A stretch of 64,000 nt of DNA from Alphaproteobacteria bacterium (GTDB lineage: Bacteria > Pseudomonadota > Alphaproteobacteria > Rhizobiales > JAKIUO01): NCBI GenBank assembly GCA_024280895.1, contig JAJRPI010000018.1:1-64000 (forward strand), in the 5' to 3' direction. The translations under genes were made by a program, and so were the position numbers. The notes below the pieces were generated by a model, which was not told where the DNA came from, did not search any database, and was given only the letters and a program-made list of their open reading frames with translations. Of this stretch, positions 35,783 to 38,580 are shown piece after piece. The first letter of the stretch is position 1. The number at the start of each line of letters is the position of its first letter.

Positions 35783-35818
35783 AAACCCCGTATTGAGCAT
35801 TCTCTCACTACGGGGTTT
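35783..35818 (+). terminator. Hairpin terminator after rhodanese gene
   Basis: AAACCCCGTA and TACGGGGTTT form a perfect 10-base-pair stem around a 16-base loop 30 bases after the stop codon. The T-run is short (TTT, then CCCTTATTTC), so efficiency may be moderate. Confidence 0.7.
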
Positions 35819-36044
35819 CCCTTATTTCAGCGCAAATATTTTGATTTTATCATCTTTTTATGCCTCGAAGGCTTGCAAATTGCCCTGTGGATCGCCACCA
35901 TAGTGGTATGGAATTGGCACGATCTTTGGCTTTGATCCTGATCATGATAATTCTGCGGTGATCCTCATTCATCTGACCAAGACAACTGCTAGTTGGAGCG
36001 TTTGTTGCGGCCCTTTTTTCAGATGATGCTGAAAGGTCAATTTT

Positions 36045-36095
36045 ATGAGACGTCTTTTACATACTGGTTCGACCCCGCCCCCTCACTTTGCGTGA
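36045..36095 (+). CDS. Putative leader peptide with a triple-proline run
   Basis: GAAAGG (36031-36036) lies 8 bases before ATG 36045, which opens a 16-codon frame, MRRLLHTGSTPPPHFA, ending in TGA at 36093. The three proline codons CCG-CCC-CCT (36075-36083) coincide with the 5' arm of the terminator at 36077-36109. Runs of proline stall ribosomes and need EF-P, so a ribosome paused there would hold the terminator open. The frame ends 58 bases before the EF-G-like gene. The peptide could also be fortuitous; its strength is the joint arrangement of ribosome site, stall codons and terminator. Confidence 0.45.
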   Translation: MRRLLHTGSTPPPHFA

Positions 36096-36109
36096 CAGGG
36101 GGCTTTTTT
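36077..36109 (+). terminator. Terminator/attenuator upstream of EF-G-like gene
   Basis: GCCCCCT and AGGGGGC pair (7 base pairs, extended internally by CAC/GTG) and are followed by six T, a textbook intrinsic terminator. It is 45 bases before the EF-G-like start and 320 bases after the rhodanese stop, so it has no protein gene of its own to terminate other than the overlapping leader frame. The region 35820-36040 holds no convincing gene; a small hairpin TTTCAG-ATGATG-CTGAAA covers the leader ribosome site. Confidence 0.8.
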
Positions 36110-36153
36110 GTGTTCGAATTCCTGCCGTGTGAGGACCCTACAAAGGAGGAAAT

Positions 36154-38196
36154 ATGATGGGGAAAAATAGTCAAGCTGGCAGCTCTTCGCGCTGTATCGC
36201 CCTGGTCGGCCCATATCTGTCTGGCAAGACCAGCCTGCTTGAAAGCATTTTGCAACATACCGGCGCGATCAATCGCCAGGGAACGGTTGCCGAAGGCAAT
36301 ACGGTTGGGGACGCTTCTCCCGAAGCGCGCGCCCATGATATGAGTGTCGAGCTGAATGTGGCGCAGGTCGATTATCTTGGTGACAGTTTTACGTTTATTG
36401 ATTGTCCAGGCTCCATCGAGTTTAGCGAAGACGCCAATACTGTTTTGCCCGGGGTAGATGCGGCGATTGTCGTGTGTGAGCCCGACCAAAAGAAAACCGC
36501 CGCCCTGCAGCTTATTTTGAAACAGCTGGAAGATCGCAATATCCCGCATTTCCTGTTTCTCAATAAAATCGACAAGGCAGAGCTGCATGTGCGCGATATT
36601 ATTCCCATGTTGCAACCGGCTAGCGACCTGCCACTCGTGCTGCGGCAGATCCCCATTTGGGAAAATAATATTGTCACCGGGTTTGTCGATCTGGCCCTGG
36701 AGCGTGCCTATCTTTACCGCGAGCACCAAACCAGCAAGATCATCGATTTGCCAGAAAATCTGACCGGGCGCGAAGAAGAAGCTCGCTTTGAAATGCTGGA
36801 AACACTGGCGGATTATGACGATGAGCTAATGGAGCAATTGCTCGAAGATATTGAGCCGCCCCAAGACAGGATTTTCGATGATCTGTCGGATGATCTGCGC
36901 TCTGGCACGATCTGCCCTGTACTTATTGGTTCGGCGGAAAAAGGCCATGGCGTCAATCGCTTGCTTAAAGCCTTGCGCCATGAGGTACCTGATGTGAGCG
37001 CGACAAGAGAGCGTCTTGGTATTGAAGCGCGCACGCTGGCGCATGTGATGAAGACCTTTCATACAGAGCATGGCGGTAAAATATCGCTGGTGCGGGTGTT
37101 CGCGGGTGAGTTTGATGATGGCGATCAATTGACCGGCAGTAAGGGCACTAATCAGCGCTTGTCGGGCCTGTTCAGCGTCCGGGGCCAGGAACCTAAGAAA
37201 TTCTCAGGCACCGCCAAAGCAGGGGACACGTTGGCCTTTGGGCGTCTTGATGCGGTGGAATCAGGTGAAAGCTTGTCCACAGATCAAGGCAAGGTGAAGC
37301 AGATCGATGTGATTGAGGCACCGTCACCGGTTTATGGTCTGGCGATCACGGCGAAGGCGCGCCGCGATGAAGTCAAGCTGACTGCAGCAATCAGTAAGCT
37401 CATCGAAGAGGATCAATCTTTATCACTGCGCCAGGATCAAGCGCTTGGCGAGATGGTGTTGTGGGGGCAAGGAGAGATCCATTTGCGGGTCGCGGCTGAA
37501 CGCTTAACACGCAAATTTGGCATCGGTATTGAAAGCCGCACACCAAATATCCCCTATAAGGAAACCATTCGCAGTCAGGTTGAAGTGCGCGGGCGTCACA
37601 AGAAACAGTCCGGTGGGCACGGGCAGTTCGGGGATGTGGTTGTTGAGATCAAACCCATGCCGCGTGGGACCGGTTTCACCTTTTTTAATTCAATCGCTGG
37701 CGGGGTGGTGCCGCGTCAGTATATCCCGGCGGTGGAACATGGCATTGAAGATTATCTTGGCGCTGGCCCCTTGGGATTTCCGGTTGTGGATTTATCGGTT
37801 GAGCTTAAGGACGGCTCTTATCATGCCGTGGATAGCTCCGAACAGGCATTTCGCATGGCTGGAGTAGTGGCGATGAAAGAGGGTATGCCGCAATGCAATC
37901 CCATCCTGCTGGAGCCCGTCATGGCGGTGGAGATTTTTGTTCCGTCAGAAGCGACCGCTCGTATTAACGGCATTGTCTCAAGCCATCGCGGGCAGATCCT
38001 TGGATTTGACGCAAGACCGGGTTGGCTTGGATGGGATCTCGTCAAGGCGCACATGCCGCAAAGCGAGTTGCAGCGGTTGATTGTCGATATCCGCTCGGCA
38101 ACGGCCGGCGTTGGTACTTTCACGTTCAGCTTTGATCGGCTCGCCGAAATCAATGGCAGATTGCGCGATCAGGTCCTGACAGAATATGCGGCTTAG
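36154..38196 (+). CDS. Elongation factor G-like translational GTPase
   Basis: This 680-residue protein has the EF-G domain order but is the divergent alphaproteobacterial EF-G-like type rather than canonical FusA. The P-loop is GPYLSGKTS (about residues 19-27), the G3 motif is DCPG (83-86, DTPG in canonical EF-G) and G4 is NKID (137-140). Domain II is shortened; domains III-V are recognisable (GQGEIHLRVAAERL, RGRHKKQSGGHGQFGDVVVEI, SHRGQILGF). Its cellular role is not established; paralogues of this type can act in recycling or under stress. AAAGGAGG lies just before ATG. A terminator with a proline-rich leader frame sits directly upstream. Confidence 0.85.
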   Translation: MMGKNSQAGSSSRCIALVGPYLSGKTSLLESILQHTGAINRQGTVAEGNTVGDASPEARAHDMSVELNVAQVDYLGDSFTFIDCPGSIEFSEDANTVLPGVDAAIVVCEPDQKKTAALQLILKQLEDRNIPHFLFLNKIDKAELHVRDIIPMLQPASDLPLVLRQIPIWENNIVTGFVDLALERAYLYREHQTSKIIDLPENLTGREEEARFEMLETLADYDDELMEQLLEDIEPPQDRIFDDLSDDLRSGTICPVLIGSAEKGHGVNRLLKALRHEVPDVSATRERLGIEARTLAHVMKTFHTEHGGKISLVRVFAGEFDDGDQLTGSKGTNQRLSGLFSVRGQEPKKFSGTAKAGDTLAFGRLDAVESGESLSTDQGKVKQIDVIEAPSPVYGLAITAKARRDEVKLTAAISKLIEEDQSLSLRQDQALGEMVLWGQGEIHLRVAAERLTRKFGIGIESRTPNIPYKETIRSQVEVRGRHKKQSGGHGQFGDVVVEIKPMPRGTGFTFFNSIAGGVVPRQYIPAVEHGIEDYLGAGPLGFPVVDLSVELKDGSYHAVDSSEQAFRMAGVVAMKEGMPQCNPILLEPVMAVEIFVPSEATARINGIVSSHRGQILGFDARPGWLGWDLVKAHMPQSELQRLIVDIRSATAGVGTFTFSFDRLAEINGRLRDQVLTEYAA

Positions 38197-38202
38197 TTTG
38201 GT

Positions 38203-38580
38203 CTCGCGGCTATTCCGCCTGACGGCGGGCCTCCGACGGGGCGCGCTACAGCGCGGCGCGTAGTCACGCTTGCCTCCCGATGGTCGGAATTCCTTTTTCA
38301 AAGGGAGGGCGGTGCTAGGAAAAAAACAACCGATGTGGTCATCGGCAAGGGCGACTGCCCGCCGGACTTTTTTTAACGATCTACCGCTGCGCTGTCTGAG
38401 ATCGATGCCCGCCCACGGCCCTCAAGCAGCGAAGCGTTAGGGCAACTAAAATGCAGGCCGCGCGTTAGCGCGATTAGCCGTGAGGACAAGAACAACCGAT
38501 GTAGTCATCGGCAGGGCCGACTGGCCGCCGGGCATTGCCCGCCCCATCGGAGGCCGCGCGTTAGCGCGATTAGCCGTGAG
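38203..38580. repeat. Long palindromic repeat element, copy A (with internal extra copy)
   Basis: The 400-base gap after the EF-G-like gene is filled by a GC-rich element. A left arm (38203-38285, beginning CTCGCGGCTATTCCGCC) and a right arm (38493-38580, ending GCGCGATTAGCCGTGAG) are imperfect inverted copies of each other. Between them lie a partial right-arm copy (38453-38484; its last 30 bases are identical to 38551-38580) and a second partial CCGATGTGGTCATCGGCAAG block (38331-38350). A related element lies at 61113-61325. No coding sequence is visible. Confidence 0.8.

Follow-up and report, generated by a model that had tools for sequence, protein, structure and literature searches.

Transcription attenuators that are read by the ribosome are already known, including some in front of genes for GTPases that act on the ribosome. 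For the tet(M) gene of Tn916, Su et al. (1992, cited in PMC5418344) reportedly described a transcription attenuator made of a leader open reading frame (ORF) and a terminator. In the case of pyrL, in front of E. coli pyrBI, no antiterminator is involved, as a ribosome that follows close behind the RNA polymerase itself keeps the hairpin from forming (PMC10135430, PMC5021804). The hflXr/rli80 attenuator of Listeria has a 14-aa ORF, and its mechanism involves an antiterminator as well as an RLR drug-stall motif (PMC6310831). In the alphaproteobacterium Sinorhizobium meliloti, uORF attenuation in front of a DUF1127 gene senses translation inefficiency (PMC12218461). Lastly, reporters for polyproline stalling and EF-P have indicated that stalling uncouples and increases termination (PMC5021804).

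Here, we describe a candidate for such an attenuator in front of the gene of an EF-G paralog, found in a window of 64,000 nucleotides (the whole stretch of DNA analyzed) from a metagenome-assembled alphaproteobacterium. It resembles that of tet(M) in that a leader ORF and a terminator precede the gene of an EF-G-like translation GTPase, but the gene is not of the tet family, and it is chromosomal, lineage specific and without any known link to a drug. The resemblance to pyrL is that the leader ORF extends into the terminator, here with the stop codon (36093-36095) inside the hairpin (36077-36103). However, in pyrL the polymerase pauses on a U-rich template, which is how UTP is sensed, and no comparable tract is conserved here (a T6 run at ca. 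36014-36019 in G000, checked as a U-rich pause tract, is not conserved across the genus); besides, the ORF has 16 codons and the regulated gene codes for a translation factor. With hflXr it shares a very short leader ORF that would control premature termination, in that system before the gene of a ribosome-splitting GTPase homolog, although neither an antiterminator nor an RLR motif was found here. The DUF1127 leader is also alphaproteobacterial, with uORF translation controlling premature termination, an SD-sequestering hairpin and C-rich codons. However, it has no intrinsic terminator (Rho has been proposed), whereas the uORF described here runs into an intrinsic terminator, and the loss of uORF translation raises expression there but should lower it here. 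Finally, as in the EF-P reporters, Pro codons, the ribosome and an intrinsic terminator would interact, but the PPP is not conserved here. What is new is the controlled gene and the restriction to one genus.

The EF-G paralog

EF-G paralogs, which to our knowledge are of unclear function, occur widely among Alphaproteobacteria. The gene behind the leader (Table 1) was described as EF-G-like in an initial reading made from the sequence only (the sequence-only reading), an assignment borne out by the NCBIfam profile NF009379, which it matches with 1003 bits (cutoff of 513). Membership in the tet-type ribosomal protection proteins could be ruled out (tet_protect NF012153, 214 bits for a cutoff of 775). 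The main EF-G of the cell is encoded by a separate gene elsewhere in the genome, with 31% identity to the paralog and the motif DTPGHVDF at the switch-II position. At this position, DCPGS[IVF]EF was found in 29 of the 30 orthologues examined (L001-L030), while the 30th fell outside the pattern used for the search.

In translational GTPases, catalysis is carried out by the His of DTPGH, which is Ser in 29/30 sequences of the paralog family; the P loop is also altered (GPYLSGKT). Since the catalytic His is replaced, paralogs with DCPGS may hydrolyze GTP differently, or not at all. In one orthologue (L005, in G003), the matched frame has an in-frame TAA at codon 481 (GRHK*QSGGHGQ), which would be either a sequencing error or a broken gene, the assembly coming from a low-coverage metagenome. 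Downstream of the paralog gene, at 38329-38346 and 38495-38512 on the minus strand, there are near-identical GCCGATGACNACATCGGT hairpins with T-rich tails, possibly members of a small repeat family.

A putative promoter in front of the terminator

Upstream of the orthologous gene, the pattern TTGC-N20-ACSAT appeared 47 times at the exact spacing in 67 loci from the whole order, compared to about 0.09 expected from a shuffle control of the same loci, run with a one-spacing pattern of nearly equal content. Positions outside the search pattern were also conserved (C before TTG in 51/53 and G at +21 in 45/53), as a real −35/−10 pair with an extended −10 would predict, and it is from the position, spacing and conservation of the motif that we infer a promoter. 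This promoter-like motif, which precedes the orthologue at some 50 loci across the order, has an unusual −10. A candidate sigma-54 promoter near 35925 was dropped on inspection, its spacing being off by one. On the other side, a terminator-like hairpin at 35784-35817, after a gene with a rhodanese domain, sets that gene apart from the promoter of the paralog.

The distance from promoter to start codon is 245 to 283 nt in the genus and 85 to 240 nt (median of about 120) in other families. The leader of the genus is therefore about 125 to 160 nt longer than the median elsewhere, and the extra stretch holds the uORF and the terminator. A terminator between promoter and gene was present in 5/5 genomes of the genus versus 2/52 of the others, both of these with a poor T run. 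Since it lies 3′ of the motif-based promoter, the terminator would be part of the leader of the gene’s own transcript. This order of promoter and terminator, which goes beyond what the sequence-only reading had, is the strongest argument supporting attenuation.

The same promoter could also give rise to a small independent transcript, either an sRNA or a tiny gene, that ends at the terminator, with the paralog expressed by ordinary leakage or from an undetected promoter. The strength of the terminator would suit such a transcript, and so would a leader with no more than two conserved blocks. However, the promoter is the orthologous gene’s own, found directly upstream of it in some 50 other loci, the 44 bases between the T6 run and the ATG of the paralog are too short for a further promoter plus an SD, and the element is always found at an EF-G paralog gene. 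We consider this explanation improbable.

Layout and conservation of the leader element

According to the sequence-only reading, the stretch 36031-36157 contains a Shine-Dalgarno sequence (SD), a frame of 16 codons with a run of Pro, a terminator with T6 and the SD and start of the gene, and direct reading of the sequence recovered the same layout (Table 1). The codons of the uORF are ATG-AGA-CGT-CTT-TTA-CAT-ACT-GGT-TCG-ACC-CCG-CCC-CCT-CAC-TTT-GCG-TGA. The terminator hairpin (GCCCCC-UCAC-UUUGC-GUGA-CA-GGGGGC, −15.7 kcal/mol in the window) was overlooked by the default terminator scan, presumably owing to its 2-nt bulge. Among the 21 terminator-like hairpins that the window contains, no other has a frame with SD and ATG that ends within it. 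As a whole, the 158-nt region has an ordinary folding energy (z of 0.03); the signal lies in this particular hairpin with its U tract, and in their conservation.

TABLE 1 Features of the leader and the EF-G paralog gene (positions in the window)
Feature	Position	Strand	Basis or remarks
Putative promoter, TTGCAA-N17-CACCAT (motif CTTGC-N20-ACSAT)	35873..35901	+	Order-wide motif; start expected near 35908
EF-G paralog 5′ leader, about 245 nt	35908..36153	+	Deduced from promoter position
Predicted SD-sequestering hairpin (GAAAGGUC/GAC..CUUUU), AUG in loop	36031..36058	+	Minimum-free-energy fold, G000/G001/G002
uORF Shine-Dalgarno, AAAGG	36032..36036	+	Sequence reading; 8 bases 5′ of ATG 36045
Upstream ORF (uORF), MRRLLHTGSTPPPHFA, 16 codons	36045..36095	+	Length and frame same in 5/5 genus genomes
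Intrinsic terminator, hairpin 36077-36103 and T6 36104-36109	36077..36109	+	−12.8 to −17.9 kcal/mol, five genomes
Shine-Dalgarno of EF-G paralog, AAAGGAGG	36142..36149	+	Sequence reading
EF-G paralog, NF009379 family, 680 aa, DCPGS for DTPGH	36154..38196	+	NCBIfam profile and motif

The comparison set was made up of five genomes of the genus (G000 to G004), closely related with the exception of G003; no other genera of the family were found among the relatives listed. The element is directly 5′ of the orthologous gene in all five, in each of which the uORF keeps its ATG, its length and a stop codon within the hairpin, while the terminator keeps both its hairpin and its U tract. The SD of the uORF is present in G000, G001, G002 and G004 but weak in G003. 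The five predicted peptides are MRRLLHTGSTPPPHFA, MRRLLHTGSNPPPHLA, MRRLLHTASILPPHIT, MRRVLHIGSIPPPHAV and MTRLYPQGLIRPPHQR. Identity to the divergent G003 is about 40% 5′ of the SD, 57 to 71% from the SD to the ATG, 83 to 92% over the ATG and codons 2 to 4, 40 to 50% over codons 5 to 11, 74 to 85% over the hairpin, 100% over the U tract and 34 to 44% downstream. In the terminator, the arms are conserved in the five genomes and the loop is free in sequence, always with a length of 5 nt. As the rest of the leader diverges in the comparison with G003, selection has retained two blocks with a constant spacing between them, namely, the terminator and the region of initiation.

A chance juxtaposition of these features without any regulation is very improbable. 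They are short, and a frame with SD and ATG ends within a random 27-nt stretch at 2.2% of positions, but terminator, U tract, start block and spacing have all been kept in G003 in spite of the ca. 40% identity around them. From the sequence comparison, the arrangement of uORF and terminator exceeds chance.

The element seems to be confined to the genus. When ca. 290 further genomes of the order were searched with a hairpin pattern allowing up to 2 mismatches, there were nearly no hits, and those found (L031, L032 and L038) lacked the uORF/U-tract arrangement and were discarded; another hit of the pattern, G000:C94, is an ordinary gene-end terminator. A covariance-model search recovered the element once in each of the five genomes, plus one weak match that corresponds to a gene-end terminator. 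In a scan of 84,980 species genomes it was found in this genus only, with scattered single matches in unrelated phyla. The named records of the genus are metagenome-assembled Alphaproteobacteria, of a small group that is uncultured.

Two other structures were discarded. One is a longer overlapping frame that would run from 36023/36026 (MMLKGQFYETSFTYWFDPAPS...) to the EF-G start, but has no SD, is frameshifted in G001 and lacks a start in G003; of its six variable columns in the shared stretch four are third positions, an excess with an estimated probability of about 0.1 by chance before correction for three frames. The other, an outer stem around the terminator (TTCGA/TCGAA), fails in G003 in the same register.

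Alternatives to reading by the ribosome

The counts of synonymous and nonsynonymous changes give no sign of purifying selection on the uORF peptide, and the conservation of the start block could thus serve an RNA hairpin instead. In this main rival explanation, the 130 nt that precede the terminator would respond to a ligand, a protein or temperature through RNA structure alone; the uORF would be there incidentally, and the block conserved around the ATG would form one side of a hairpin. It is the main rival because this block doubles as a predicted hairpin arm, pairing with AAAGGUC in the predicted folds. The SD-sequestering hairpin has 90% of cells paired in the five genomes, and no compensatory changes were found in the SD or the terminator helices of the five sequences. 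Upstream, a helix (CAUCUGA/UCAGAUG) has a double change once and G-U changes twice, which would also fit an RNA-only device. On the other hand, the predicted folds contained neither a conserved antiterminator nor any fold in which a conserved partner sequesters the terminator arm, and the Rfam covariance models gave no match to the leader at the gathering cutoff, nor at E values up to 1. Besides, G003 has no more than about 40% identity in the upstream region, and covariation falls within the range of shuffled sequences. We regard a structure-only attenuator as somewhat unlikely, although it deserves more credit than the other alternatives.

The sequence-only reading had proposed that ribosomes stalled at the polyproline when EF-P is limiting open the terminator and raise the expression of the EF-G paralog, in a feedback on elongation stress. 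The general part of this proposal, i.e., an attenuator in the leader of an EF-G-like gene, is supported by the conserved promoter, terminator and uORF, while the sensing of polyproline or EF-P is not. Its geometry is sound since, in the masking calculation described below, a ribosome paused at the Pro codons (11 to 13) covers the 5′ arm of the terminator. However, PP is found in 5/5 genomes and PPP only in 3/5, the others having LPP and RPP; that is, two relatives have kept the terminator, the frame and the PP but not the PPP, which is in part what the sequence-only reading had named as a refutation, and there is no Pro run conserved independently of the hairpin. Codon 11, the first Pro, is CCG, CTG or AGG and sits in a stretch evolving at the background rate, whereas codons 12 to 14 (Pro-Pro-His) are the hairpin arm CCCCCUCAC itself. 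With codon 11 evolving freely and codons 12 to 14 being the arm, the polyproline is best read as a by-product of the C-rich terminator arm. The absence of purifying selection on the peptide also speaks against polyproline sensing. Moreover, in E. coli reporters a polyproline stall before a terminator raises termination (PMC5021804), although the stall is there outside the arm. EF-P sensing is therefore doubtful, about as much as the small transcript. The case calls for some caution, as a C-rich terminator arm can yield Pro codons in a leader as a by-product.

A proposed model of attenuation by the ribosome

The explanation that we favor, with a probability of about one half, is that the EF-G paralog is under a ribosome-dependent transcription attenuator of the pyrL type. 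Promoter motif, leader, terminator, frame, conservation and geometry were read from the sequence; that the uORF is translated, and that its translation prevents termination, is what we infer from them. In the masking calculation, the edge of the ribosome was set at 12 to 16 nt beyond the P-site codon. With the P site at codons 1 to 6 the hairpin remained intact (about −16 kcal/mol), from codon 8-9 through the stop codon it was nearly abolished, and at codons 11 to 13 the entire 5′ arm was masked. Given that no conserved antiterminator was found, direct masking is the simplest route.

Transcription would begin near 35908, at the gene’s own promoter, and stop by default at the terminator. With its P site anywhere between about codon 8 and the stop codon, a ribosome would lie over the 5′ arm and block the hairpin, allowing read-through into the gene, while a ribosome at the start codon or within the first six codons, or none at all (SD hairpin closed), would leave the terminator free. 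Thus, an occupied second half of the uORF would mean on, and no initiation or an early arrest would mean off. The hairpin at the start of the uORF could set how often ribosomes enter, and the Pro-Pro pair plus the stop codon may prolong their dwell; the third Pro would be outside the design. Whatever slows the ribosome toward the end of the uORF or at the stop codon would raise read-through. Observations that go against the attenuator are that the SD hairpin is predicted to hide the start of the uORF, that the SD is weak in G003, that the peptide gives no sign of purifying selection, that compensatory changes were absent from the SD and terminator helices, and that the comparison covers five sequences, all but one of them closely related.

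A further step, which we put forward as unlikely but worth stating, is that the device acts as a lineage-specific elongation sensor, in which read-through follows the dwell time of the ribosome and the paralog, with its altered catalytic G3 motif (DCPGS), is supplied when elongation or termination of translation is slow. If true, this would be a feedback loop on a noncanonical translocase, outside the antibiotic resistance genes.

Implications for EF-G paralogs

The regulation of EF-G paralogs gives a direct hint of the circumstances in which they act. If the attenuator is indeed read by the ribosome, it would imply that this paralog is wanted when ribosomes behave unusually. The promoter, shared by the whole order, provides a testable handle on the paralog gene in cultivated species.
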